In this document: one piece after another, positions 24,026-44,347 of the stretch
Numbering within the stretch: position 1 is the first letter of the stretch
Layout of the letters: each line of letters starts with the position of its first letter
Virus record (IMG/VR): IMGVR_UViG_3300020190_000109
Location: 1 to 44,347 of that record
Source: a virus
Direction: 5' to 3' (one strand)
DNA: 44,347 nt
Notes under the pieces: generated by a model
Told to the model about the DNA's origin: nothing
What the model saw: the letters and a program-made list of their open reading frames with translations, nothing else
Databases searched by the model: none
Made by a program: the position numbers and the translations under genes

Positions 24026-25696
24026 TTAGACGTTACCGGTGAAAGGAAGTGACAGGTAGCCGAGCTTCATGCCTGCAACTAGGTCAGCAGCGCGGACCTT
24101 GATGGAGGTAGAAGTGGCGTTGTTGTTGCCGATTTCGAAGTAGAAGCCGTCGTTGTTGGGTGAAGCAACGGTGCCGCTGTCGGGAAGCTGGAAGTCGGTG
24201 TCGACGAATACGATCAGGTTACCAACACCAACCTTGAAGGAAGGAACGGTGAGGGTTACGAGACCGTCGACTGCACCGCTGATATCGTCGGCGAGGATGG
24301 TGTAGCTGTTACGGCCAACCTTCCAATCGTTAACGGCATCAACAGCTGCATCTAAGTCAGCAAGTGCGCCCTGGACATCAGCAGCATCGATTACGGCTAG
24401 GTTGGTATCATCGAAGCTGATAGCGGTAGCAGCATGTGCACCTTCAGCATCGGTGATGTGGGCGTAGAGGGCGGCATCTAGGTCAGCAATGGCGTTCTGT
24501 ACTTCAGAGGCATCAACGTACTGGAGACCAGCATCGTTGAAGCTGATTGCTGTAGCAGCATGGGCGCCTTCGGCATCAGTGATGTGAGCATAAAGAGCAG
24601 CGTCGAGGTCAGCAATAGCATTCTGAACTTCATCAGCGTCAACATACTGTAGACCGGCATCAGCAAAGCTGATTGCGGTTGCAGCGTGTGCACCAACAGC
24701 CTGATCCTTGTGAGCCTGTAGAGCAACGTCTAGATCAGCGATGGCTTCCTGAACGTCATCAGCATCAGTGTTGTCCAGACCAGCAGCAGCAAAGCTGATG
24801 GCGCTAGCATCGTGAGCATCGGTGGCGTTGGTGATGTGGGCATTGAGGGCTGCATCGAGGTCAGCAATTGCTTCCTGAACATCATCAGCGTCGGTGTGAG
24901 CGAGACCAGCAGCAATGAAGCTGATTGCAGAGGCGTCGTGAGCGTCAACAGCGTCATCTAAGTGGTCCTGTAGAGCGCTACCGGCTGAACCTAAAGATGC
25001 AGCTAGTGCATCTAGAGCATCAGCAACGGTTGTGGGATCTGGATCTTCCCAGTCAGCAGCAACGGCAGGGGTGTAAGCAACGGAACCAGTGATGGTGCCG
25101 GAAGCGTTGATGTCAACAACGGCTAGATCGTTAACTTGGAGGTCAACGAGTGCACCCAGGCTGACGCCGTCAGCCTGAACGAAAGAGGCAAGGAACTTGT
25201 CGTTGGCTTCATCCCAGACTAGACCAGCGAAGTCACGCTTGGCGCCAGCAGCTGCAACGTTACCACGTTCAATTACGAAACCAGCATAACCGCTGGGTAG
25301 AGCAACACCAGCAGCGTTGAGGTCAGCGCGGTTGAGCTGGATTAGCTTGTCAGCGATTTCAACAACGGTGGAGTTAACGGTGGTGGTAGTGCCGTTGACG
25401 GTCAGGTCACCGGTGATTACAACGTTGTTTGAGAAGGTACGGTTACCGGCAATGGTAGCCTTGAGGTCTAGACCGTTAGCGCCAACTTCTAGAGCATTAG
25501 CAGAAGCTAGCTTGATACCAAGAGCGTTGGTAGCAATTTCTAGACCCTTGTTAGCTGCTAGGTTTAGCTTGAGGTCATTGTTGACGCCGTCGAGAACGAT
25601 TGCACCACCGGAATTAACAACATCAGCATTGAACAGTGAAGCCTTTACGCTATTAGCGCGTAAAGACTTATAAGCAAACGCCTGATTAAGAGACAT
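24026..25696 (-). CDS. Fibre-like virion protein with five 42-residue repeats
   Basis: The start is ATG at 25696, behind GGGGAGGAG, giving 556 residues beginning 'MSLNQAFAYKSLRANSVK'. Residues about 90-120 have the phage fibre signature 'VVITGDLTVNGTTTTVNST', common in fibres of T4-like marine phages. Five tandem 42-residue units follow (see repeat feature), each with 'A.AISF..AGL..' and 'DVQ.AIADLDAAL.AH'. The C-terminal domain is beta-rich, ending 'MKLGYLSLPFTGNV'. The repeats probably build a trimeric shaft. DNA is clearly GC-richer than neighbouring genes, with G/C-ending codons like the capsid gene, suggesting high expression. It is its own transcript, between a leader of about 160 bases and a strong terminator. 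Confidence 0.72.
   Translation of the reverse strand: MSLNQAFAYKSLRANSVKASLFNADVVNSGGAIVLDGVNNDLKLNLAANKGLEIATNALGIKLASANALEVGANGLDLKATIAGNRTFSNNVVITGDLTVNGTTTTVNSTVVEIADKLIQLNRADLNAAGVALPSGYAGFVIERGNVAAAGAKRDFAGLVWDEANDKFLASFVQADGVSLGALVDLQVNDLAVVDINASGTITGSVAYTPAVAADWEDPDPTTVADALDALAASLGSAGSALQDHLDDAVDAHDASAISFIAAGLAHTDADDVQEAIADLDAALNAHITNATDAHDASAISFAAAGLDNTDADDVQEAIADLDVALQAHKDQAVGAHAATAISFADAGLQYVDADEVQNAIADLDAALYAHITDAEGAHAATAISFNDAGLQYVDASEVQNAIADLDAALYAHITDAEGAHAATAISFDDTNLAVIDAADVQGALADLDAAVDAVNDWKVGRNSYTILADDISGAVDGLVTLTVPSFKVGVGNLIVFVDTDFQLPDSGTVASPNNDGFYFEIGNNNATSTSIKVRAADLVAGMKLGYLSLPFTGNV
24317..24943 (-). repeat. Five tandem 126-bp coding repeats in the fibre gene
   Basis: Five in-frame units of 42 codons encode 'AHDASAISF' or 'AHAATAISF' starts and 'EVQNAIADLDAALYAHITD'-type ends. 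Units 3 and 4 are nearly identical in protein and units 1 and 2 are close to each other. A degenerate sixth copy may precede unit 1. The array is protein-driven, because synonymous codon differences separate the units. Confidence 0.85.
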
Positions 25697-25854
25697 TTGT
25701 TTATTCTCCTCCCCTTTACGGGATTTAAGCGGGCAAGATTTGAACACCCACCCGGGTGATCGACTCTAATTATTCTAAGTGTACAACTATCATGACATAG
25801 AACTTTGCCTAGATCTAAACAAAATTCTACACCATAATTGGTTATCTGGCTTAG
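25697..25854 (-). promoter_or_regulatory. Leader/promoter region of the fibre repeat gene
   Basis: This 158-base gap contains no convincing gene. It holds a CACCCGGGTG palindrome near 25748-25757 and AT-rich boxes (TAGAAT-like near 25775 on the minus strand), consistent with a dedicated promoter for the highly expressed fibre gene. The -35/-10 assignment is uncertain. Confidence 0.35.
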
Positions 25855-32062: not shown

Positions 32063-35000
32063 ATGAACAGGATCGCTCAAAGCAACTATGAGAGTTTGCA
32101 GGCTGCACAAGCCAAGCTAACTCTTGCTGAGCTTATCAACAAAAAGATTACAGCACTATTTGTTGGCTTGCAAGATGGCCATATAGACCTAAACGGGGTA
32201 GACCCTAAAGAAAGCCCTACAGATTCATATGCGACTTTACTAAAAATAAGGCGCGTTATGCGTCAAACAATGGGTCTAGCTTATCAAGATGACTTTATTC
32301 AAGATTTACGAGAACTAGTCAAACCTGAAAATATTAAATTATTTGTTCAAGGTCTGATAACTGAAGGATTTATTTCTGAAAACTCTGATGACATAAACTT
32401 TCTTATTAATGAGCTTGAAAGTAAAAATATTGAAGATGTTTTAACTTTTACTCGAGAACAAGCTCGAAACAGCCTATTTGGTACTTTAGCTAAATTCCAG
32501 GAAACAGACAGCGATACTCTATACGACGAAATTGGTTTTCATTTTGGTCGCCCTAACATACTGGATGAAAGGGGATTTCTTACCAGTGAGAAAGTAAATC
32601 GTTTAGTAAACACCCTAAAACAACACTTAGGTGGTGCAACTGCTAGAGGTTACGGTTTAATAACTGGAGCTACTGTAGGACAAGCAGCACTACTAAACAT
32701 ACTCACAGCTTCAAAGTCTGTTGATGTATCTATGTTCCAGCTAGAACATAGTTTAATCCTGTCTGCCCTTTATTACAAAAAACAACAATTTAGTATGCTG
32801 AATCGCATGTCAACAGAACATCGCACAATCAATGTGCTTCTTGCTGCAGCGCATAATCCTAACGGTGGTGAGGGTTATGATCCGTACTTCAACTGGATAA
32901 ACCAAGCCGGTAAAGCTTTACTAGGTGATAGTGTATCTTTTCATGAAGTAATGGGCAGTTATGCACACGAAAAGTTTATTGCAACGGATTTACCATCTTG
33001 GGTTATCCAGTTAAAGTACGGGTCATATGTGGTTGGTAACTCTATAAAAAAATCTACAGTTATGATTGGGTCCTTTAACATGACCAGGGGTGCTCTGGGA
33101 AATATTGTTGATAATCACGGAGCCCTTTCTAATGCTAGACCATATAACTTTGAGCTTGGATTCAATATTGGGTATGAGCTAGTTCGTTATGGCGGTATGA
33201 AGTTTAGTACATTTGCAAAAATAATTGGAGAAGCCCGCGGATACGTAGATAGAGTAATACAAAATAAATTTCCAAATATAAACAATCATCCTGAACACAT
33301 ACTTAGTGGTCCAGAAACTTATACACGACTACAAAAAGCTCTTGGGCTTGGTAGCTCAAGTCTTGGTAATAAAGTTGATGCATTCTTTATGCTTAACGTT
33401 ATTACAGATCGAGGGATGCTGGATGTTGATGGTAAGGGTGAAAAAGGTAGAGGTTTATTCCACACTATTCATGACAAACTAAGTGCCAGTAAAGATAGCA
33501 CCATCACAATATTTGTAACTGAGGGATTTAGAGATATCAGATCTTCTGATATATCAAATGGTGAGGGTGTTGAGCAAAGTAAGGCTATGCAAGCCTTACG
33601 TCAACTTGAACATGAATTCGAAGGTAGATTTAAGATTGTTGAAGTACGTCAACATGTACATGCAAAGTCTTTCATGGTGTTTCACGATGGTATAAACAAC
33701 AACAAAGGTGGTTTTGAATTAATTGCAGGGTCAGCCAACGTTAGTGCTGAATCTTTAGGGGGTAGTACTACAGAACTTGGCCTTTACCTAGGAAGTCAAC
33801 ACTTTGAAGATGACTCGTTTTTAAGGCAACAAGCAGAAAACATTTTAAGTAACCTGTGGATGCATTCACATCGTGCAGGTAAGGGCATAAACCCACTTAA
33901 AAACCTAAACATGTCTAGCGCTGATAGAATCATGCTAGAACTTAAAAAACGACTTAACCCATCTCTTTCTCGATTAATTACAGTAAGTGAAAACCGACAA
34001 GGCGTAGGAAGCCTTATAAGCCTAAGCATAAGTATTAAAGATCCCAGTACTGGAAAAATATTTGAAGTAAAAGATGCGGTTAAACTAAGCATTCAACAAT
34101 ACAACAGTGATCCAAACAGGCTATTTATTCCTGAATTACAAAAAGTAATCGACCCAGTTATAGGCCAAGATAAAAATTCTACAGTCAAGTACGGAACAGG
34201 TACTGAGCGCGGGCATTTGCGTGTTGTTGAGTACACTGCAGGTGAAGTTGTTGCTGCAGCTCTTGAAGAAATTTCAATAGAGCTCGAAAAATCTACACTA
34301 AATCTGCTAAGCCGGTATGGAGATAGATTACTACTTACCACCAGTGGTCAAAGTTTCTTTAAACGTCAACTACGTCGTATGGGTAGTGAAATAGGTCTAG
34401 AAATTTTACGTCACCAGGAAGGGTTGCCTATTGGGTCTCGTACAAACGAACAAGCTCGACAATTACAAAGACTAATTTTTGGTATTGAGTACAAGGACCG
34501 CAACCTTATTGATGCCCTTCAATTAGACCCTTCAATGGCTTTAGACACTGACTCAGCTTTTAGCCTACACCAACTTGCCAGGATGTTTGGCGGAGATGAG
34601 ACTAACGTTATCCCACTACTTAGCCTAAGAGAAGAAAACCGCCCAATACTTTCACCGATGTCAATAGAGCGTAGTTTTGAAAAGTTTGCAGCTTTACAGG
34701 AAGAAATGCTTGGTCTTAACAAAAAGCACGTAGCCGGTAATGCACCCAGTGAAGTTATTAGGGTAAAAGACGGAAAACTAGTTGTAGAGCCACTACTATT
34801 CACCCTACTCGCAGAAAGCTTATCTTGGGACAAGCCTGCAAAAATACTACTAGCAGATGCTTTTAATTACCTAACAGCTACAAATTACGATGACTCTACA
34901 CAAGCTGTAATGTCCTTGATGAACCCTGCAAAATTAGCGCAGTGGGCACAACGTTTACAGAACATGCTTGGTAGTGACGTAGGCTACATGCATGTAAATC

Positions 35001-38000
35001 CCGGTAGCCCAGCAGAAAAGAACTTCAGACGAGTCGAAATGCCGTTTGGGCCGCCCAGACCAGACGGAAAACCTCGTATGTCTACAGAATTTAGATTCTT
35101 GCTTCTCTGGGGGTTAAACGAGCAAACATATGTACAAGCCGATGCATTCCGCGGAGCAAACGTTGGATACAGGACACAAATGTCCTTCCAGGTATATACC
35201 AGAGAAGCTTTAAGTGGTGCAGATGAAGTAGCTAGCAGTATGTTTGATGGCCGAGTAAAACTTGGCCCAGACGGTAACTGGATGGTATTTGACAACCGTA
35301 CAAACAGTTACATAGAAGCAGACCCAAATAAACCTCTGCTAGAAGTTACCCATCAAGAAAGACATATCCACGGACCTGTAGTGATTGTAAATGGTAAGAG
35401 AGAGGTCCTAACCATGGCCAATCCTATCTACGGTCAACGCGGAGCCCGTGTAATTATTCACGGTATCGTACAAGAAACTGACGCTGGGGGCAGGCAGGTA
35501 TTCAAAGCAGACGCTGAAGTTTTACAGCCTGTAAGCAGTTCAATGCGTATGCTATCTCAAACCATGAAAATGGTATTTACAGGCTTGGGTAGCTTTGTAG
35601 ATGAAACAGGAAAACGTCGAAGCTTCTTTACAGATCTTGTTGAATCAATCAACAAAACATTTTTTAGTGAAAACTACTTTAAAAAACAAAATAGGGAAGC
35701 AGCTGATTATTTTGGAAAAGCTTTTAGGGGTTTAGGGCTAGCTAGTGACACAAACCAACAAATCATGGATGCTCAAAAGCTCCACGGTGTTGTGGGTGAG
35801 AGCATAATCAAGTCGGGTGTAGCCTTGTTGCACACCGGCTACACCCTACTAGAAGGTTACTACGACGGTGGTGCTTGGTCTGATAGTTTCCTGGAAATGT
35901 TTGAAACCAGGAAAGGTAGAGAACGATTTAGCACAATGCTTGAAAGTATCAAGCAAAGTTTAGATAAAAAGGGTTCTGTTAAGACTTCAGATGTACGCAA
36001 GCGTTATATGCTTGACAGCATTGAACAACTACTGGGTTCTGATAATAGTCTAGAAACCGGTATCAAAGAAGCTCTAGCTAATGATAATCAAGCTCTCAAA
36101 AAAGTTGTAGAGTCGATACGAAAAGGTGAGCTTAAAAACATCAGTGATCCATTTGCAAAGATGGTTATTGCTGCAGCAGCTGCGTATCACATTTATAACG
36201 GTATACACCATTCTGAGATGCTTAATGATGCTATGCGCGAAACTACGAAGAGGATGGCAGGTACCTGGGGTGGTGTAGATTCCCGTGTAATATTTGGTGC
36301 GGCAATTCCAATTGTTATGAGGGACGACATTAGTGTAGCTCAGTTCCCCATGTCTAATAGGCAGAGTGCAATTTTCCATACAAACTACGTTGGAAACCAC
36401 TCCCAAATAATGCTTAAAGCTATATCTACAAACCGAGAAACAATTCGTCGTCGAGAAGTAGTATCTGAACTTTTTGCTATTGGGTATTTAGGCGGTACTT
36501 CTATTGTTGCTTCTAACTACGCTAAAAAGTCATTACAACATGGAGGTAAATCTGTTGATATAGGTCTACTTCAAAAAGAAAACATACAACTTGCAGGTGT
36601 ACACTTTGAACCTTTTGCTTATACCTTTACTGGTATGAGTTCTGAGTCTGAAGGAGCGCTATCTAGAATTTCTGAAGTTGTCCGTAGGCTTACATATGAA
36701 GATTTAAGTGATAAAGATTTACAAGCAGTACAGGAAGAATTTAAAAAGAGCCTGTCAATAATTAAAAAAGATTACACCACCCACAGTGGAAATACAAATA
36801 CTCGTACAAGTCCACAAAGAGAAGAAAATCGTATTCAAAGCTTCAAGCTACAGCATAAAGCTCGTTTAGGTGGCGCTGTAATTTATGTACCCGTTCTTAG
36901 TTTTGATCGTGAACATAACTCGTTTACCCATGAAATTGCTGATCTCTCTTATGAAAAGATTTCCTTACCCTCGCCAGATGCAGCTGTAAAACTACAAAAC
37001 TTTGATGACTACGTTGGTGATATTCTCAACCTATCTCACGAAATCCAACGTGAAAACATAGCTATTAGAAACATTATCAAGATGGCAGAAATTTTTGGTG
37101 GGCACGTATCTAGTGCAGCCAGAGATCAATATGAACAATTTTTACTAAAAGTAGAAACTTTAAAGGCCAAAATTAGAGAAGCAAGTACTACAGATATTCA
37201 AAAAACAATATCTGCACTAAGTGGTGTTCAGGGCTTTGCACAGATTGCTAACACATTTGGTAGCTTTGATGGATTAGTATTTTCAGAAGATAAACAGGGT
37301 AGAAAAATAAGCGTAGATAACGTTATAGTCATGGGCGATGAAGTCATGGCTGCTGTAACAAAAGAATCTCTAACAGCGCTAAGAATTGTCAAAAAGTTTG
37401 TTAGCCAAGTTGCACTAGGTAAACAATTAAATGTTAGTGCGGATGATCCCACAGGTAATAGTCCAGTACTAAAACTTAAAGGTAAAAAAGTTATTGTACG
37501 GCGTGGAAAAGAAATCCGGTACACATTTGAAAGCTTAAACTTTGGGGAAGATTCTTATTTAAGTACAGCTACAGACACCTACGATGGAAACCATTCAGAT
37601 GTACGCGGAGTATCTGCAGTATTAAAACAAATTGGTGTTGCTTATGATCTTCAACAAAGTGAAAGAACAGGATTTTTGAAATTAATTCAAGAAAAGAAAA
37701 AATTACAAAAACTGCGTGTAGAAAACAATAAAGAAAAAAATAGACGTAATAATACTCTAGTAGATAAAATACAAGATCAAGAACAACTTATTGAAAAATT
37801 ATCTTCAAAACACTTTTACGAATCTGGTCTAAGGGGTGTATTTAGTCTAAAAGTACAACAACACGCTTTAAAAATGCAACTTAATAAAATAGAAAATCAA
37901 ACTGGTGTAAACGCTATTGAACTACAAGAAGCTCGACTAAAGCATGGCCTTGTTTCTGAACGATTAGAAGTACTAGCTTTTACAAAAGATAACCTTACAA

Positions 38001-41000
38001 CTCTACATAGTAAAATTCGACAAGTAAAAGAAAACCTAAACAATAAATCTATATCTGTTGCAGATAAAAAAGAATACAAAAAAATGCTTGCATTCTTAAA
38101 AGGACAGCAGCATAGAATAAACGCTGGATTAGTCTATACATCCACAGAACTAATGTCGCAGGTTTCCTATGAAGATATTGATCATGCATTTATGGCAGCT
38201 GGAATTGACTTAGACCATGAAGTAACTCATGCAATTGATAATAAGTCAATGAATAAAACCTTAAGCACAAATGCACTTGTAGAGCTTCTTCAACTTGGTC
38301 ATGCTGCTAGACAAGCTGGTTTAGCAGTAGCAGGTCTTCGTGCAGGCGGCCCTGTAGGTAACTTTGGACCTGTCGGTTATTTTGCTATGAACGTACGTGA
38401 CTTTAACGCACACATGCGTAGAATAGATTCAAACTTTAACTTGGACCCTTATATGAACCGTCGAGCCATGTTCTTGCATATTTCAGGTATGGCATTAAAC
38501 CTTGGTGACTTTGACGGCGATAACATTGTTATCAGTCAAATAAAACGATACACATTTTTAAAATCTCTAGATTCTCTAACGCACGGTGGTATTGGTGCCG
38601 TAGACAGTTACCTTGCTGATGGTGTTGAAGGTCTACGTAAAAAGAATGTTTCTGAAAAAACTATTGAAGCCTTGTTCAGGGAAATATCTGGTAACAGGCT
38701 TGGTGGTTATGAAAATCTAAGTTTACTCGAAGAAATGCATAAACTAGAGCAGGAAATTTATCGCCGTAATGGAAATTTATTAGTCGAGCAGACAGAACGA
38801 TACCTTGGGCTTCACAAAGGTGAACTAAGAAACAAAATCCAGACAGAAGAAGCTTTTAAAGATTTATGGCATGACGCTCAAGGTAATTCAACAGCTGAAG
38901 AACTTTTGTTATTTAAGTATGCTTCACAACTTAATATGTTTGCAAATGATATGTTTGGTCATGCTGAACAAAAAGCTACTGGTGCCATAAATGCATACTT
39001 GAAAAAATCTAATAATTCAGTATATGTAAGTGCTGAAGAAATTGATAGAAGCGCCTTTGAAAAGTTTTTACAAAGTGAAGAGGGACAAGCATTTCACAAT
39101 GATTTAAAAGGCTGGTATAAAGGTCAAAGCACAGCAATGGTTAACAAGTATTTAGAAAATATACTTGGTACTGAAGTTGATGTTAATACAGTTCTTAAAT
39201 ACGGTGTACAAGTTGCGTTTGCTTCTACAAAGTTAATCGGTAACTGGACAAACATTCAAACAATGCAGCAGTCCATGAACTCCTATAGCCGTTATGAATC
39301 TTACAACCACATGCAGAGGATGAAAACAGCAGTTATTGCTGCTGCAGAATCTCGTGGTGATAGTGCTGAGTCAATTGAACAATTTAAAAACAATGTAGAA
39401 AAACTTCAGAATGAAAGCCTTGCCCATAATGACGAAATACATCAAAGACTTTCAGGCTACATGTTGAATTTACAGCAAGCAACACGTGACGCGATTAAAG
39501 AAAAATCTGCGCTTGCTCTACGCGATACTTCACAAGAATCTGTATTTGAATCCATGGTCAAAGATAATGTACTTATTAAAGCTATTGATAAGAGCTATAC
39601 CCTTATTTATGGTCGATCAATCTTTGATGTGGACAATAGTTACGATTCAGAAATGAGCCGAGAGAGTGACCTCGCTAAAGTCCTGACAACCCTTAATGTT
39701 GATGAAGCTATAAAAATTGGCTTTACCGAGGGTGGTCAGATGCAAGCTGAAATCACCAGTGCTTTATCAAGTCACGAGCATTATATGGCTGTTGTAGAGC
39801 ATATGATTTTGCCTCACCTTGAAGCTATGGCAAAAATGCAAAAGGACTTTTTAAGTAAAGAAGTTCCAAACCAACTTGCTGTTATGAGCAATGCTGAAAA
39901 GCTAAAGTTCTTAATGAGTGATGAGTCTGGGATATCTGCTAGCGGGCGAACCACAGCACTCTTAATGGCTCACTCGATGTGGAGAGATTATGAAAATTAC
40001 TCCGCTATGAAAACTTATACAAAGTCCCTTATGATGAAAGATGCTTCAAACTTTGAAAATGCTCGTAATAGCTTAGACGACCACTTAAAACTTGTTGTAT
40101 TTTATGAAGCAACAAAGGGTGGAAAACTTAATGAAGCGGGTATTGATAGATTACTTGGAGACATTGTTTCATCATATGTATCAAGTGACTACGGACTTGA
40201 CAGATTAGTATCAGACGCAAGAAGCATTGACTCTACTGGGTACTTTGCAGATAGCATGACAACCCTATTAGCGAGCTATATGGGTGGTCAAAACATAGAT
40301 AGCAGGCTTCAAGCACTACAAAGAAACAATCAAGTTCAGTACCAGATTCTTGCGGAAATGGAATACGAGCTAGCAGACGCTGTACGTGCAAATCCATCTG
40401 TTCAAGTTAGCTCACAAGTAGAAACAAAAGAGGCACTTGAACATCTTAAAAAAGCTGCAGCTCCCGCAGATCCTAATAAACCCAGTGCAGATCCATCAAA
40501 AGGTCCTTTAGCAACTGCATCACAAGCAGATGGTACACAAACTCCAGAAGAAGTGAAAGATGCTGCCTTACAAGATCCTTCAGTAAATCGTTTAGAAAAA
40601 CAAATGTCAGAAGTTAAAGATATTGCTCAGCACAGAGCCTTTAAACAAGAATTAGATGTATCCAGAGAAATAAAAGCCTACCGACAGGGTTTTGGTAGTG
40701 CACTTGGACACATTGCCCATCAAGGACTTATGGCCCTTATTCCTAGCTTGTCAAAGAGCATGGGAATATTCGGTGCAGGTGCAAGTGTTTTCGGTATGAG
40801 CCAGGTAGCCCAAGCTCAACAACTTGTACACGGTACTAGGGAAGGTGAAGATTCAAACACCACAACTGTATTCAACAAGATGAAAGATTACTTGATGACT
40901 ACAGCACTTATGTGGGAACCTCTTATGTCTTTACGAGCTCTACCTGCAATGGTTAACTCGCAAGAGCAAGCCCTAGCAAGTGCTGCAGGAGTTATTATCC

Positions 41001-41563
41001 CGCTTGTAGTTGGTACTGCAGCTGCTTCTAAAACACTACAAGCTACAAATGTAGTGGGATTCGGCCCTAGAGCTCCATTAGGTGCTCTAGCCCGTGCAAG
41101 CTCTATTTCTTCGCTTATAGGTATGATGGCCGCGGGTCACACAGTCAATAAGTTTATTGAAAATGCTATAAGACTAAGACACCATAACAGAGAATCTGAG
41201 TTGTTAATGCACCATCAGATTGCTGAAGACGTTAATCTGGCAAAAGCTATTGAAGCTGATTTCTCAGAACTTCCAGAACTCGTCTCAAATAAACTTGAAG
41301 ATCCATCAATACGTATGGTTGAGTGGGATGGCACTGTAATTGATACAGACGATACGCTTAAAGCTACAGACTTCAGTGAAGGTCTGTACCTTAATGACGG
41401 AACTTCTGTTGCTGGTGACATAGTAACCGCATACGGAGACAATACTCCAGAATCAATGAACATGCCTCAAGACATGAATGAAAGTAGTGCGGATCGTATT
41501 GCAAGAGAACAGGGTAATGTAACCTCATACCTTGAACGGTTTAGTAGTTGGTTTAAACGTTAG
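32063..41563 (+). CDS. Giant virion protein with N-terminal PLD-like domain and RNA-polymerase-like DFDGD motif (3166 aa)
   Basis: One uninterrupted frame of 3166 residues. Residues about 190-620 carry two phospholipase D-superfamily motifs: H302-x-K304-x4-D309 with G336-S-F-N339, and H533-x-K535...D542 with G556-S-A-N559. Core strands read 'LLNILTASKSVDVSMFQLE'. Residues about 1860-1990 are coiled coil. At 2149-2153 lies DFDGD, in 'FLHISGMALNLGDFDGDNI', matching the Mg-binding loop of beta-prime-type two-barrel RNA polymerases (as in YonO and crAss-phage virion polymerases). 'GLRAGGPVGNFGPVGYF' precedes it. Residues about 2885-3030 contain hydrophobic Gly/Ala-rich stretches. The size and gene position fit a packaged, ejected protein; tape measure is an alternative. 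Enzymatic function is inferred. Confidence 0.7.
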   Translation: MNRIAQSNYESLQAAQAKLTLAELINKKITALFVGLQDGHIDLNGVDPKESPTDSYATLLKIRRVMRQTMGLAYQDDFIQDLRELVKPENIKLFVQGLITEGFISENSDDINFLINELESKNIEDVLTFTREQARNSLFGTLAKFQETDSDTLYDEIGFHFGRPNILDERGFLTSEKVNRLVNTLKQHLGGATARGYGLITGATVGQAALLNILTASKSVDVSMFQLEHSLILSALYYKKQQFSMLNRMSTEHRTINVLLAAAHNPNGGEGYDPYFNWINQAGKALLGDSVSFHEVMGSYAHEKFIATDLPSWVIQLKYGSYVVGNSIKKSTVMIGSFNMTRGALGNIVDNHGALSNARPYNFELGFNIGYELVRYGGMKFSTFAKIIGEARGYVDRVIQNKFPNINNHPEHILSGPETYTRLQKALGLGSSSLGNKVDAFFMLNVITDRGMLDVDGKGEKGRGLFHTIHDKLSASKDSTITIFVTEGFRDIRSSDISNGEGVEQSKAMQALRQLEHEFEGRFKIVEVRQHVHAKSFMVFHDGINNNKGGFELIAGSANVSAESLGGSTTELGLYLGSQHFEDDSFLRQQAENILSNLWMHSHRAGKGINPLKNLNMSSADRIMLELKKRLNPSLSRLITVSENRQGVGSLISLSISIKDPSTGKIFEVKDAVKLSIQQYNSDPNRLFIPELQKVIDPVIGQDKNSTVKYGTGTERGHLRVVEYTAGEVVAAALEEISIELEKSTLNLLSRYGDRLLLTTSGQSFFKRQLRRMGSEIGLEILRHQEGLPIGSRTNEQARQLQRLIFGIEYKDRNLIDALQLDPSMALDTDSAFSLHQLARMFGGDETNVIPLLSLREENRPILSPMSIERSFEKFAALQEEMLGLNKKHVAGNAPSEVIRVKDGKLVVEPLLFTLLAESLSWDKPAKILLADAFNYLTATNYDDSTQAVMSLMNPAKLAQWAQRLQNMLGSDVGYMHVNPGSPAEKNFRRVEMPFGPPRPDGKPRMSTEFRFLLLWGLNEQTYVQADAFRGANVGYRTQMSFQVYTREALSGADEVASSMFDGRVKLGPDGNWMVFDNRTNSYIEADPNKPLLEVTHQERHIHGPVVIVNGKREVLTMANPIYGQRGARVIIHGIVQETDAGGRQVFKADAEVLQPVSSSMRMLSQTMKMVFTGLGSFVDETGKRRSFFTDLVESINKTFFSENYFKKQNREAADYFGKAFRGLGLASDTNQQIMDAQKLHGVVGESIIKSGVALLHTGYTLLEGYYDGGAWSDSFLEMFETRKGRERFSTMLESIKQSLDKKGSVKTSDVRKRYMLDSIEQLLGSDNSLETGIKEALANDNQALKKVVESIRKGELKNISDPFAKMVIAAAAAYHIYNGIHHSEMLNDAMRETTKRMAGTWGGVDSRVIFGAAIPIVMRDDISVAQFPMSNRQSAIFHTNYVGNHSQIMLKAISTNRETIRRREVVSELFAIGYLGGTSIVASNYAKKSLQHGGKSVDIGLLQKENIQLAGVHFEPFAYTFTGMSSESEGALSRISEVVRRLTYEDLSDKDLQAVQEEFKKSLSIIKKDYTTHSGNTNTRTSPQREENRIQSFKLQHKARLGGAVIYVPVLSFDREHNSFTHEIADLSYEKISLPSPDAAVKLQNFDDYVGDILNLSHEIQRENIAIRNIIKMAEIFGGHVSSAARDQYEQFLLKVETLKAKIREASTTDIQKTISALSGVQGFAQIANTFGSFDGLVFSEDKQGRKISVDNVIVMGDEVMAAVTKESLTALRIVKKFVSQVALGKQLNVSADDPTGNSPVLKLKGKKVIVRRGKEIRYTFESLNFGEDSYLSTATDTYDGNHSDVRGVSAVLKQIGVAYDLQQSERTGFLKLIQEKKKLQKLRVENNKEKNRRNNTLVDKIQDQEQLIEKLSSKHFYESGLRGVFSLKVQQHALKMQLNKIENQTGVNAIELQEARLKHGLVSERLEVLAFTKDNLTTLHSKIRQVKENLNNKSISVADKKEYKKMLAFLKGQQHRINAGLVYTSTELMSQVSYEDIDHAFMAAGIDLDHEVTHAIDNKSMNKTLSTNALVELLQLGHAARQAGLAVAGLRAGGPVGNFGPVGYFAMNVRDFNAHMRRIDSNFNLDPYMNRRAMFLHISGMALNLGDFDGDNIVISQIKRYTFLKSLDSLTHGGIGAVDSYLADGVEGLRKKNVSEKTIEALFREISGNRLGGYENLSLLEEMHKLEQEIYRRNGNLLVEQTERYLGLHKGELRNKIQTEEAFKDLWHDAQGNSTAEELLLFKYASQLNMFANDMFGHAEQKATGAINAYLKKSNNSVYVSAEEIDRSAFEKFLQSEEGQAFHNDLKGWYKGQSTAMVNKYLENILGTEVDVNTVLKYGVQVAFASTKLIGNWTNIQTMQQSMNSYSRYESYNHMQRMKTAVIAAAESRGDSAESIEQFKNNVEKLQNESLAHNDEIHQRLSGYMLNLQQATRDAIKEKSALALRDTSQESVFESMVKDNVLIKAIDKSYTLIYGRSIFDVDNSYDSEMSRESDLAKVLTTLNVDEAIKIGFTEGGQMQAEITSALSSHEHYMAVVEHMILPHLEAMAKMQKDFLSKEVPNQLAVMSNAEKLKFLMSDESGISASGRTTALLMAHSMWRDYENYSAMKTYTKSLMMKDASNFENARNSLDDHLKLVVFYEATKGGKLNEAGIDRLLGDIVSSYVSSDYGLDRLVSDARSIDSTGYFADSMTTLLASYMGGQNIDSRLQALQRNNQVQYQILAEMEYELADAVRANPSVQVSSQVETKEALEHLKKAAAPADPNKPSADPSKGPLATASQADGTQTPEEVKDAALQDPSVNRLEKQMSEVKDIAQHRAFKQELDVSREIKAYRQGFGSALGHIAHQGLMALIPSLSKSMGIFGAGASVFGMSQVAQAQQLVHGTREGEDSNTTTVFNKMKDYLMTTALMWEPLMSLRALPAMVNSQEQALASAAGVIIPLVVGTAAASKTLQATNVVGFGPRAPLGALARASSISSLIGMMAAGHTVNKFIENAIRLRHHNRESELLMHHQIAEDVNLAKAIEADFSELPELVSNKLEDPSIRMVEWDGTVIDTDDTLKATDFSEGLYLNDGTSVAGDIVTAYGDNTPESMNMPQDMNESSADRIAREQGNVTSYLERFSSWFKR

Positions 41564-41850
41564 TCTTCTAGAGAAAATAACAGATAAGTAATCTGATCCT
41601 GAATTTCTCGAAGAGCAACCTTGTCAAACTCTGTAAGCTCAGCCTTACGCAACTTCTTCATGCGCTCTAGCAAATGCTTTGGGGAGCCTGAGTACACAGA
41701 AACCATGCGTTCAATTACATCACCAATCTTGCGACCTTCATGAATTGAATAGTCTCTAATTGCATCCGCAAATGAAGGTCCTATGCTTGCATTGAACTGG
41801 ACCTTGTGGGTCTTTGGCCTACCAGGTCTCTTAGGTGGATTACTAGCCAT
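41560..41850 (-). CDS. Small ribbon-helix-helix-like DNA-binding protein with AT-hook-like N-terminus
   Basis: The start is ATG at 41850, with GGAG 7 bases upstream, giving 96 residues. A TTG at 41862 upstream is less likely because it overlaps the ribosome binding site. The N-terminus 'KRPGRPKTHK' has an AT-hook-like RGRP-type core (PGRPK). 'VQFNASIGPSFADAIRDYS' followed by 'EGRKIGDVIERMVSVY' fits the strand-helix-helix order of ribbon-helix-helix (Arc/MetJ/CopG) repressors. A charged helical C-terminus follows. Its stop overlaps the giant gene stop by 4 bases in tail-to-tail orientation. It may repress this operon or regulate the structural transcripts. Confidence 0.6.
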   Translation of the reverse strand: MASNPPKRPGRPKTHKVQFNASIGPSFADAIRDYSIHEGRKIGDVIERMVSVYSGSPKHLLERMKKLRKAELTEFDKVALREIQDQITYLLFSLED

Positions 41851-41905
41851 GGGTATCTCCAAACAATAGTAAATATAGTCTAGATTGATCTAGGACTAAT
41901 TTACA
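41851..41905 (-). promoter_or_regulatory. Inverted repeat before the RHH gene
   Basis: Between the FlgT-like gene stop and the RHH start lies TAGTCTAGATTGATCTAGGACTA (41877-41899, given in parts: TAGTCTAGAT and ATCTAGGACTA). It is an imperfect inverted repeat of about 10 bp with one extra base in the right arm. It could be the operator of the RHH protein itself. No T-run follows, so it is not a clear terminator. Confidence 0.4.
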
Positions 41906-42634
41906 TTATATCCAAATAATCGACAATAGTTTAGTCTGAGTGACGATTTTTGGATCTTTTGGACCAGGTATTATTAGTTTTTTCCACGGGTAGTAAGCTA
42001 CTACATCTTCAGTCCACAAGATTTTTCCAAGTTTATTTTTAAACTGCGCCTGAATAAATAAGTAGTCAACTCCATTACTAAAAAACTTTGGATGATACTT
42101 TGTATTAGGCCTAGAAATATCTAGATCGACACAGAGGCTAAATTCTCCGTCAGAAAACCTAGGTGATATTCCCAAGACCTTGATAGGGTACTTCTTACGA
42201 AACTGTAAATCATTCATAAATAGGTTCAAAGCTTTAGATTCATTTTCTACAGCTACTTCATGTTCTTGTTTCTTTATATGGGTATAAGCCACATCACCGT
42301 AAAACTGTGCAACCTTGATTCCTAGTAAAACCCCGTTCATACCTAAAGCGTGATTTTTATTAGGAGGAAATAGATCGTTTACTAAAGCTTTTTCATTGAC
42401 AGTACATAACACATGAGCTGTCCAGCTAGATTTATTCTTTACAAGCTTATAAACCCTATAGTTCGTAATATAAGCCGTACTTCTGGTAATAATTGTCTCA
42501 GAAATAAGTTGACCATTATAAACAAGAGTCTTGGCATCAACCAAGACTCTTGTTTGCTGTTCAACCCCATTTTTAAGGGCTCCCAGAACCGCTAAATCAG
42601 GCGTTTCACCGGACCCAGCGGAAGATATCTCCAT
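41906..42634 (-). CDS. FlgT N-terminal-like / LPP20-operon-like protein
   Basis: This 242-residue protein starts at ATG 42634, overlapping the upstream gene's TAA (TAATG), so translation is coupled. Residues about 18-80 read 'ALKNGVEQQTRVLVDAKTLVYNGQLISETIITRSTAYITNYRVYK' in short pieces: 'GVEQQTRVLVDAKTL', 'NGQLISETIITRSTAYI' and 'HVLCTVNEKALVNDL'. This matches the FlgT N-terminal / H-ring-type domain ('A...A....G..v...t.v.ng.l..d.i...s.gyi..y.v......v.v.v.a.v'). The C-terminal half is unique and aromatic. No signal peptide is visible, unlike periplasmic FlgT. Either it is cytoplasmic or it depends on the upstream secreted partner. Confidence 0.5.
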   Translation of the reverse strand: MEISSAGSGETPDLAVLGALKNGVEQQTRVLVDAKTLVYNGQLISETIITRSTAYITNYRVYKLVKNKSSWTAHVLCTVNEKALVNDLFPPNKNHALGMNGVLLGIKVAQFYGDVAYTHIKKQEHEVAVENESKALNLFMNDLQFRKKYPIKVLGISPRFSDGEFSLCVDLDISRPNTKYHPKFFSNGVDYLFIQAQFKNKLGKILWTEDVVAYYPWKKLIIPGPKDPKIVTQTKLLSIIWI

Positions 42635-43113
42635 TACTGGGAAATCTCGTCCTGAAGCCTATAAAAGGCCTTTTCCGGCATTACCCACTGCACCCAGACA
42701 GAATACCTCACACCCTCAGAAGTTTGACGGCTTTCCCAGTAAACATTTTTCTGGCGTAGAGACTTCAAGATAGCTGCGGCACTCCACGTAATCTGCTCGT
42801 TAACCTGCTCGACACTGTTCTTGGTGTTTAGCTGCGACTGGGTCTTTACAGTGGTTTGTAGCTGTTCTGCAAGTTGTGCAAGCGCGTAGGCTTTTGCAAG
42901 TCGAACTCCCGACTCTGCGGAGAGTGCGCTAGTGGATGTAGTAATAATCGTGATAAATCCTGGGATATCTTCTTGGCTAGATACCCACTCGGGGCGGCTA
43001 CCGGAATTATCAGTTGCGCGGTCAAGTACTGGTTCCCGATATGCTGCGGCTCTTACAGTTCCGGCACACCCGGACATAAGTGCTGCGGCCAACAACGCAT
43101 TAAGTATTTTCAT
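42634..43113 (-). CDS. Predicted outer-membrane lipoprotein, LPP20/FlgP-like
   Basis: This 159-residue protein has a short positively charged N-terminus, a hydrophobic core and a lipobox with Cys16 ('NALLAAALMSGCAG'), so it should be lipidated. The mature part has 'SRPEWVSSQEDIPGFITII', then an Ala-rich amphipathic helix ('RLAKAYALAQLAEQLQTTV') and a 'YWESRQTSEGVRYSVWVQW' strand pair. This matches the LPP20/FlgP pattern ('.PeWv.........g.G.........A...A...l...l.......W.d..G.yy.la.l.k'). FlgP forms an outer-membrane-associated ring with FlgT in sheathed flagella. In a phage, a surface lipoprotein could mediate superinfection exclusion or another envelope change; that is inference. Confidence 0.6.
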   Translation of the reverse strand: MKILNALLAAALMSGCAGTVRAAAYREPVLDRATDNSGSRPEWVSSQEDIPGFITIITTSTSALSAESGVRLAKAYALAQLAEQLQTTVKTQSQLNTKNSVEQVNEQITWSAAAILKSLRQKNVYWESRQTSEGVRYSVWVQWVMPEKAFYRLQDEISQ

Positions 43114-43353
43114 GCTTGCAGCTTAATGGAAACCCTATAGATTTGTCTAGGGGGTATTTCATCAAAATTTTTGGTGCGTGTATTTGGGTCCTCTGCCCTA
43201 AGTCGATTTTCTATTAAATTCTCAGGTCAGGTCCCTTGTGAAATCGCGGGTAATAATTTCGCCTAGATTATATTTTTGAGAAGTGCTTGAGCGTGGGTGG
43301 TGGGCAATGAGTGTGTATTGGTACCCCCCTATGATCAGGGTTGTAACCAAAAT

Positions 43354-43377
43354 GAAAAATTTTAGTGTCCTACACTC
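43354..43377. repeat. 24-base direct repeat, copy 1, within a hairpin
   Basis: Begins GAAAAATTTTAGTGTCC and ends TACACTC. It is identical to 43515-43538, 161 bases downstream. Copy 1 also forms part of a hairpin (CCTACAC at 43369-43375, GTGTAGG at 43379-43385, loop TCT), flanked by GAAAAATT/AATTTTTC arms to 43400. Confidence 0.9.
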
Positions 43378-43403
43378 TGTGTAGGTTTCTAGAATTTTTC
43401 AAC

Positions 43404-43424
43404 CCCTAAAACTTTGTTTTAGGG
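43404..43424. repeat. Perfect 9-bp hairpin CCCTAAAAC / GTTTTAGGG
   Basis: Nine base pairs with a TTT loop directly follow the hairpin of repeat copy 1. It has no T-run on either side, so it is not a classical terminator. It may be a protein-binding or replication-related structure. Confidence 0.8.
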
Positions 43425-43432
43425 CCATGTTT

Positions 43433-43447
43433 GATACTGTAAGTATC
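43433..43447. promoter_or_regulatory. GATACT-GTA-AGTATC palindrome
   Basis: A 6-bp inverted repeat with a 3-base centre shares its half-site with elements at 9836-9855 and 23957-23965. It overlaps the first of the 18-base repeats. Confidence 0.45.
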
Positions 43448-43485
43448 TTATATACATGGGAAGACCTTGTAAGTATCTGTATTAC
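43438..43485. repeat. Two imperfect 18-base direct repeats (iteron-like)
   Basis: TGTAAGTATCTTATATAC (43438-43455) and TGTAAGTATCTGTATTAC (43468-43485) are spaced 30 bases apart. They differ at three positions and are followed by GGTATACC, an 8-base palindrome (43487-43494). Confidence 0.75.
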
Positions 43486-43514
43486 GGTATACCAAACTTA
43501 CGGCCTTTCCACAC

Positions 43515-43538
43515 GAAAAATTTTAGTGTCCTACACTC
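43515..43538. repeat. 24-base direct repeat, copy 2
   Basis: Identical to 43354-43377. Here the hairpin partner (GTGTAGG) is missing, so the repeat is conserved without its fold. This suggests that the linear sequence is what matters. Confidence 0.9.
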
Positions 43539-43631
43539 AAGAGCCTGAGGGCTAGAGTATCCCTTCTTAAAGGGAACCCAAGACACTTAAAGTTTTTCCT
43601 AGGTAGTCTCATCAGCTGCTTAGTATGAAGC

Positions 43632-43650
43632 GTATAAGTGATACTTATAC
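43632..43650. promoter_or_regulatory. Operator-like palindrome in front of the coiled-coil gene
   Basis: GTATAAGT and ACTTATAC (8-bp arms) are separated by GAT and end 9 bases before the ribosome binding site GGAGG (43659-43663). A TATAAG box in the left arm could be the -10 element, so a protein bound here would block transcription or initiation. Confidence 0.6.
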
Positions 43651-43671
43651 AGAACATTGGAGGAAATCCAC

Positions 43672-44313
43672 ATGATCAGTACCATCCTTTTGGGGTCCTT
43701 GGGCCTCACGGCCCTCGGCGTGTGGGCTAAGGGGGCCGTCCGTCGCTACGGCGACGCGATGGTCGCCGAAGCCCGCGCCGAGGTCGAGGCCGAGGCTAAG
43801 GCCAAGGCGAAGGTCGAAGCCCTCGTGGCCGCTGCCCGCGCCGAGGCCAAGGCGGAGGTCCTGCGCGAGCAGGCCGCTGCCGACGCCGAGGCCAAGGCCG
43901 CCGAGGCGGAGGTGAAGCTCCTCCGGGAGCGGATCCTCGCCGAGGTCGAGGACCGAGCCCGCGAGGTCGCCGCCGCCCAGGCCAGGGGCCAGGCCGCCCA
44001 GGCCGCCCAGGCGCAGGTCGAGGCCGACAAGGCCAAGGCCCTCGCCGAAGGAGTCCGGGCCCTCGTGGCCAAGGCCCGAGCCGAGGCCAAGGCGGAGGTC
44101 CTGCGCGAGCAGGCCGACGCCGAGGCCAAGGCCGAGGCCGCGGCCCAGGCACTGGCCTGCCTCAGGGCTCAGGCCTTGGCCCTGGCCAGCCAGGCCGAGG
44201 CCATGGTCGAGGCTGAGGCTGAGGCCAAGGCCAAGGCCAAGGCCAAGGCCGCCAAGGCCCGCGCCCCCAAGGCCCCCAAGAAGGCCCACCCCGCGGGATT
44301 CCGCGTGAGGTAA
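43672..44313 (+). CDS. Membrane-anchored Ala/Glu/Lys coiled-coil protein with basic H1-like tail, very GC-rich
   Basis: The start is ATG at 43672, with GGAGG 8 bases upstream, giving 213 residues. A TTG at 43657 is upstream of that site and unlikely. Residues 2-19 are a membrane span ('ISTILLGSLGLTALGVWA'), followed by basic 'KGAVRR', so the body is probably cytoplasmic. Residues about 30-185 are nearly uninterrupted helix, with Ala/Glu/Lys/Arg heptads such as 'RAEAKAEVLREQA' occurring twice, 80 codons apart. The tail 'KAKAKAKAAKARAPKAPKKA' resembles histone H1 or bacterial H1-like proteins. G/C-ending codons are almost universal, quite unlike the AT-leaning surroundings. No family is recognised. 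A role in tethering DNA or virion parts to the membrane is speculative. Confidence 0.65.
   Translation: MISTILLGSLGLTALGVWAKGAVRRYGDAMVAEARAEVEAEAKAKAKVEALVAAARAEAKAEVLREQAAADAEAKAAEAEVKLLRERILAEVEDRAREVAAAQARGQAAQAAQAQVEADKAKALAEGVRALVAKARAEAKAEVLREQADAEAKAEAAAQALACLRAQALALASQAEAMVEAEAEAKAKAKAKAAKARAPKAPKKAHPAGFRVR
43840..44115 (+). repeat. 240-base-offset direct repeat in the coiled-coil gene
   Basis: Identical 36-base blocks at 43840-43875 and 44080-44115 lie inside wider similar segments that begin at CCCTCGTGGCC (43820 and 44060). The offset is 80 codons, in frame. Shorter GCCGAGGCCAAGGCC-type units fill the rest, showing growth of the gene by repeat expansion. Confidence 0.85.
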
Positions 44314-44325
44314 AAGAGTCATGGG

Positions 44326-44347
44326 GTCGGTAGCGAAAGCTGCCGGC
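44326..44347 (+). terminator. GAAA-capped 9-bp hairpin at the window edge
   Basis: GTCGGTAGC (44326-44334) pairs with GCTGCCGGC (44339-44347) through nine pairs including two G-U, around a GAAA tetraloop, 13 bases after the coiled-coil gene stop. The following bases are outside the window, so the T-run needed for a terminator cannot be confirmed. Confidence 0.5.

Follow-up and report, generated by a model that had tools for sequence, protein, structure and literature searches.

The right-hand end of the viral contig IMGVR_UViG_3300020190_000109 raises the question of how a phage fragment with an overall GC content of 42% comes to end in an open reading frame (ORF) with a GC content of 0.743, and what the product of this ORF might do in the infected cell. 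The window, that is, the whole stretch of DNA analyzed here, is the complete IMG/VR record of 44,347 bases; the features that bear on the question are collected in Table 1.

A preliminary description of this DNA placed the ORF at positions 43672-44313 and reported an abrupt jump to extreme GC content, a protein consisting almost only of Ala, Glu, Lys, Arg, Val and Gln, and open frames in both strands caused by biased codons; the coordinates proved right, and these three observations were borne out. The maximum likelihood change point of the GC content is position 43692, 20 nt inside the ORF. The GC content of the three codon positions is 0.80/0.51/0.91, and the value for the third position (GC3) compares with 0.21 to 0.58 for the 27 other window ORFs tabulated (28 in all, picked by hand from 88, with overlapping ORFs and the small ORF 41560-41862 set aside). 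The amino acid composition alone does not account for the high GC content because back-translations of the same protein with phage codon usage (n=2000; mean GC 0.527, sd 0.0105) top out at 0.560. The six predominant amino acids make up 164 of the 213 residues (77%), and this is the only ORF in which they reach at least 65% among 987 ORFs of at least 100 amino acids with a ribosome-site-like sequence, drawn from the window together with nine related records, of which two were covered in part. The antisense frame is open because TTA, CTA and TCA are rare in the sense frame, and both frames use the same triplets.

The ribosome-binding site and the ATG straddle the GC step with normal spacing. The terminal hairpin has a folding energy of -15.4 kcal/mol (z -4.09), and none of 200 shuffled sequences was equally stable. 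Contigs often end at hairpins and repeats, and the terminal hairpin, of a type that a related contig carries in many copies, would explain the end of this contig at 44347. Together, the ribosome-binding site, the start and stop codons and the terminator-like hairpin form a complete expression unit, and ORF 43672-44313 is almost certainly a real gene of the phage.

Table 1. Features at and upstream of the GC-rich ORF (window coordinates)
Feature	Position	Strand	Remarks
Giant ORF, 3166 aa, GDFDGD at residue 2149; syntenic anchor	32063..41563	+	Relatives in G003 and G005
Small ORF directly after the giant ORF	41560..41862	-	Same place in G003; no Pfam family
24-nt direct repeat, first copy, with GTGTCCTACAC palindrome	43354..43377	+	Upstream of the GC-rich gene
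24-nt direct repeat, second copy, 100% identical	43515..43538	+	Upstream of the GC-rich gene
8-3-8 palindrome GTATAAGT..ACTTATAC, candidate operator or promoter	43632..43650	+	Directly before the ribosome-binding site
Antisense open frame, 225 aa, not counted as a gene	43645..44322	-	Mirrors the sense codon bias; no Pfam family
Ribosome-binding site GGAGGAA	43659..43665	+	8 nt from GGAGG to ATG; read from the sequence
Orphan ORF, 213 aa, Ala/Glu/Lys-rich	43672..44313	+	ATG at 43672, stop TAA at 44311-44313
Hydrophobic N-terminal segment, codons 2-22, candidate single membrane helix	43675..43737	+	Followed by K20, R24, R25
Continuous predicted alpha helix, residues 10-196	43699..44259	+	AlphaFold2, single sequence, mean pLDDT 84.8
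Internal duplication, first copy, codons 50-68	43819..43875	+	89% identity over 83 nt
Internal duplication, second copy, codons 130-148	44059..44115	+	Offset of 80 codons
Basic Ala/Lys/Pro tail, residues 197-213, net charge +6	44260..44310	+	Lys-Ala-Pro pattern
Terminator-like hairpin, 9-bp stem, GAAA loop	44326..44347	+	Truncated at the contig end; a U-tract, if any, would lie outside

The 24-nt direct repeat upstream of the ORF has two matches in the window, a number reached in none of 100 shuffles. Its 14-nt core occurs in 47 stretches of IMG/VR, with a single match in each, which we put down to chance. The promoter scan found 2 candidates against 2.6 expected, no excess over chance; no Rfam family reached its gathering score, and three weaker Rfam matches in 41500-44347 (E 0.13-0.45, two of them inside the GC-rich ORF) were rejected. 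The window contains no tRNA genes.

The capsid protein encoded in the window matches those of 10 phage records at 25-30% identity, namely Microcystis phages of the Ma-LMM01 kind (25% identity and E 2e-27 for Ma-LMM01 itself) and a Microcoleus phage. Closer relatives are IMG/VR contigs, including one that is near-identical (G001), two at 76-78% (G002 and G003) and one at 48% (G005). A search for the host with the capsid profile in GTDB contigs gave 367 pattern matches, none of which was confirmed.

The most informative relative is G003 (IMGVR_UViG_3300042453_004886, 194,626 bp), which is colinear with the window, with the portal, the capsid and the giant ORF region in the same order. The match extends into the small ORF that follows the giant ORF (69% DNA identity between window positions 41597-41807 and G003 positions 103789-103999), and right after this match G003 turns GC-rich, from approximately 104.3 to 119.8 kb. 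The 500-nt segment with the highest GC content is found 2.1 kb beyond the giant ORF in the window (0.768), compared to 1.4 kb in G003 (0.736) and, again downstream, 3.3 kb in G005 (0.662). In three more distant contigs that also have a giant ORF with a DxDGD motif (G010, G015 and G024), the GC maximum is located elsewhere, the second highest peak of G024 being about 1.3 kb downstream of one giant DxDGD ORF; thus, the placement is seen in the window and in 2 of the 5 related contigs with such an ORF, the two closest ones. In two other contigs, G009 and G006 (63% GC throughout), no giant DxDGD ORF was seen, and they were counted neither way; within the 50 kb of Ma-LMM01 that were covered, the GC content does not exceed 0.55 and no such peak was seen. 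The five contigs were read piece by piece, and the pattern carries no probability because the comparison was post hoc, made with the window already seen.

The GC-rich block of G003 opens with two tandem paralogs of 167 and 165 amino acids (GC3 of 0.88 and 0.90), both Ala-rich and with basic C-terminal ends, and encodes, among others, a 51-aa protein with one membrane segment. These G003 genes (104412-105640) share with the ORF their place, the GC3 of 0.88-0.90, the Ala-richness, the basic end and the codon usage, but differ in having another sequence, no N-terminal membrane segment and a GRFVKA-type end. Indeed, the block genes of G003 and G005 are not homologous to ORF 43672-44313, and for those of G003 no relatives were found outside G003. 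In G005, the giant ORF is followed by small genes with intervening hairpins (identified by eye) and then by a single 1236-aa DxDGD protein. Collectively, these comparisons point to ORF 43672-44313 as, very probably, the gene that opens a GC-rich block at a conserved genome position. In addition, ten copies of a 54-nt terminator-like cassette, consisting of a hairpin arm, TTTAAAAAGAG and GGTGCGT, were observed between the genes of the G003 block (L014:5043-13453); the cassette is a candidate terminator, promoter or both. The tRNA genes of G003 number three (Lys-TTT, Asn-GTT and Ile-TAT).

Codon usage divides along the same boundary. With codon sets chosen by hand and G003 block genes 3-5 represented as two ORFs, the codon usage of the ORF correlates with that of G003 block genes (r of 0.90 and 0.92) and of a GC-rich G005 gene (0.81) compared to -0.39 for the giant ORF of the window itself; the G003 block shows a correlation of -0.25 with the G003 giant ORF, and the giant ORFs of the window and G003 correlate with each other at 0.90. 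High GC content alone yields much of this correlation; a more specific resemblance is the preference for GCC over GCG, GTC over GTG and CCC over CCG, which the ORF has in common with the first two genes of the G003 block. The recurrence of this codon style at the corresponding position of a relative indicates that the composition belongs to the place rather than to one gene.

This result bears directly on the possibility that the gene was acquired laterally from a GC-rich host or mobile element, as cargo with a role that is not yet fixed, which we consider unlikely. A codon usage opposite to that of the phage's own giant ORF, a GC3 far above the range of the other window ORFs and the lack of relatives of the gene within the phage group are all compatible with transfer, but the codon style recurs at this position in a relative, and no donor was detected in 72,556 plasmids, 50,697 phages and, by short peptide patterns, IMG/VR and GTDB contigs. 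The matching codon usage of the G003 block makes a single recent arrival in this phage alone less plausible but is compatible with the block having been acquired earlier, and the recent transfer considered in the preliminary description found no backing in these searches. No homologs of the ORF product were found in the same phage and plasmid sets or in the PDB, nor in IMG/VR or GTDB contigs, where the searches relied on short peptide patterns that favor close relatives and recovered the own record as the positive control. A search for the same gene in related phages, which the preliminary description had proposed, came back empty in 3 and then in 25 related records. Comparison to Pfam, PHROGs, NCBIfam and PADLOC at E up to 10 gave chance-level matches only, a viral structure library gave nothing above chance, and open-licence PMC papers gave nothing relevant on a similar protein. 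Given that the patterns favor close relatives and that low-complexity filters may hide some homologs, we use "orphan" for a protein with none found by these searches.

The reading of the ORF as the start of a GC-rich gene block draws attention to the giant ORF upstream, the product of which is, by its motif only, a candidate virion RNA polymerase. The DxDGD motif is present in the giant ORF and in ORFs of the 1.2-kb class. Searches of the PDB with the sequence and profile of the giant ORF were empty, and its structure model has a mean pLDDT of 33.7, which makes it unusable for recognizing two double-psi beta-barrels. Separately, the first half of the giant ORF shows a sub-threshold match to the PLD-like family PF13091 (E 2.7e-5). 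A second family of large proteins with a DxDG[DE] motif was observed downstream of the giant ORF in both G003, as paralogs of 1272 and approximately 1192 amino acids that are encoded within the GC-rich block (L014:9157-12975 and L014:13549-17127), and G005 (1236 amino acids, L084:13517-17227); these G003 and G005 proteins have no Pfam or PHROG match, and the hhalign comparison of this family with the giant ORF is weak (probability 4.9, E 0.008). An orphan block near both the giant and the second DxDGD proteins is found in G003 and G005; the window ends short of the point at which a second protein would be expected.

Two better-characterized phages provide points of comparison. In Ma-LMM01 (Fukuivirus LMM01), according to the accessible part of the RNA-seq report, the early genes, defined as those expressed within the first hour of infection, are gp054-gp063, which form one 5.8-kb block and have no known homologs, and host sigma-70 promoters are used throughout (PMC5780444), an observation that makes it less likely that Ma-LMM01 depends on a virion polymerase. 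Open-licence PMC papers contained nothing relevant on a virion polymerase of LMM01. The early block adjoins gp064 (L187:13812-18833), a hypothetical protein with a GDADGD motif that weakly matches the 1236-aa protein of G005 (22%, E 0.001), and the giant gp080 contains a DFDGD motif. Similarly to the ORF, gp054-gp063 are small orphan genes that adjoin a large DxDGD protein, and three of them (gp056, gp057 and gp059) have a strong hydrophobic, membrane-like segment by hydropathy; in contrast, their GC content is 0.35-0.54, none matches the ORF in sequence, and the block lies 14-20 kb from the giant ORF, beyond the lysis genes, unlike the arrangement in the window. Early gp061 has a homolog in the GC-rich block of G003 (34% over 125 aa, 2e-18), the only match among the 39 LMM01 proteins tested, and this link is loose because the family is also present in Paenibacillus phages and archaeal viruses.

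In Thermus phage P23-45, the accessible part of the report describes a giant DFDGD protein as the virion polymerase that transcribes the pre-early genes, a second polymerase gene among them, and a repeated terminator motif near these genes (PMC10770324). The identity of the P23-45 polymerase is experimental, whereas that of the giant ORF in the window is assigned by motif, and that part of the report mentions no relative of ORF 43672-44313. The likeness of the putative early block to those of Ma-LMM01 and P23-45 would be one of layout and motif and, by this analogy, we lean slightly toward early expression of the ORF.

The predicted protein combines three elements, the first of which is a hydrophobic N-terminal segment with a Kyte-Doolittle mean of 1.72 over 19 residues, a borderline value for a membrane helix, and pLDDT values of 47-56 across the first 20 residues. 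In the AlphaFold2 model, built from the single sequence with no alignment, pLDDT is at least 90 for 148 of the 213 residues, and the last 13 or so residues are low, like the first 20. Low-complexity Ala/Glu/Lys sequences are easily modeled as helices, and the long helix in the model is thus modest evidence. A heptad period of 3.5 was as strong in 379 of 500 shuffles for the LIVMCF residues and in 489 of 500 for hydropathy; among the 13 periods tried, 3.6 (1/500 shuffles) and 4.0 (2/500) stand out for LIVMCF. Given the lack of a heptad period among the hydrophobic residues, a canonical coiled coil is unsupported. The internal duplication keeps even synonymous codons, indicating that the gene was in part extended by a recent duplication of DNA. 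Of the repeat-built membrane coiled coil with a histone-H1-like tail that had been proposed for this protein, there remain the single duplication at an 80-codon offset with runs of Ala-Glu and Ala-Lys, the hydrophobic N terminus, the long single helix in the AlphaFold2 model and the basic tail (net +6); no support was found for a heptad pattern, coiled-coil periodicity or a relationship to histones, and the membrane helix is borderline. All things considered, the product is probably anchored in a membrane.

The basic tail invites comparison to DNA-binding proteins, such that the ORF product would tether phage or host DNA to the membrane, the tail binding the DNA and the N terminus serving as the anchor. 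The net charge of +6 in the last 17 residues, the Lys-Ala-Pro pattern and the candidate membrane anchor are in line with this model. However, there is no profile match to linker histone H1 or Hc1, the sole Pfam match at E up to 10 being unrelated (E 2.8), and a tail this short and basic would bind RNA, ribosomes or acidic lipid as well, so that nothing favors DNA and a tether specific to DNA appears improbable.

The N-terminal membrane helix followed by a long helix is also the architecture of Rz-type spanins, in which case the helix would be periplasmic and pair with a lipoprotein. A lipoprotein-like ORF (42634-43113, minus strand; LPP20 match with E 0.00028, below Pfam's cut-off) is indeed located 0.56 kb away; however, it is on the other strand and divergent, and within the window no same-strand lipoprotein, adjacent or nested, was found. 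Furthermore, Pfam and PHROGs, searched at E up to 10, yielded no match to an Rz or spanin family. Under the positive-inside rule, positive charges flanking a membrane segment stay inside the cell; here, the charges follow the hydrophobic segment and none precede it, which places the helix inside the cell, although the rule is weak in this case. Taken together, these observations make an inner-membrane spanin distinctly improbable. In TolA, domains I and II likewise consist of a membrane helix and a long Ala/Glu/Lys helix, but the ORF product has no TolA profile match and its model shows no C-terminal globular domain.

Finally, an assembly chimera, with GC-rich DNA of another organism joined at about 43650, as the preliminary description had also envisaged, would fit the abrupt step at the contig end, the fact that the near-identical G001 spans only window positions 1-27713 and so does not cover the junction, and the absence of the exact terminal hairpin sequence from all other IMG/VR contigs, but is very unlikely because the ribosome-binding site and the ATG straddle the step, which lies 20 nt from the start codon, the gene has its own hairpin, of a kind present in many copies in G003, which would explain the contig end, the small ORF 41560-41862 is conserved in G003 just before its GC-rich block, and the GC maximum is syntenic in two relatives, with the shared codon style at the same place in a close relative making the start of an early gene block likelier than an assembly error.

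We therefore tentatively favor, at somewhat below an even chance, a joint reading in which the ORF opens a GC-rich early (host-takeover) block and encodes a membrane-anchored rod with a basic tail. Under this scenario, the GC-rich block downstream of the giant DxDGD protein would consist of small genes, each with its own terminator, and the ORF would be expressed early. The hydrophobic segment may hold the protein in the inner (or thylakoid) membrane of the host, with the N terminus outside, and a single alpha helix of approximately 28 nm (187 residues at the alpha-helical rise of 0.15 nm per residue) would reach into the cytoplasm, where the basic tail at its tip could bind something acidic, for example nucleic acid, ribosomes or a second membrane. 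The positive charges directly after the hydrophobic segment and the basic tail are compatible with a rod that lies in the cytoplasm and ends in a basic tip. Keeping a target close to the membrane might serve host takeover or the exclusion of competing phages, but a specific role of this kind is doubtful.

A broader possibility is that, in a single phage lineage, a fixed position, the putative pre-early block beside a giant polymerase-like protein, keeps a separate GC-rich codon dialect even as the genes occupying it turn over without homology, the orphan membrane rod being one product of such a block; the dialect would match the codon preference of the host while host translation is still unmodified. 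This proposal is speculative and quite unlikely as it stands. Orphan early genes are where phages keep takeover and exclusion proteins, which are hard to recognize without homology, and if base composition marks the early block in this lineage, it would provide a way to find such genes from sequence alone. Furthermore, two codon styles split at a gene boundary within one small genome would allow a direct test of the tuning of early genes to the unmodified host.

Elsewhere in the window, ORF 24026-25747 contains internal repeats at 24336-24976 with an offset of approximately 126 nt, apparent as self-like matches to the near-identical contig G001.
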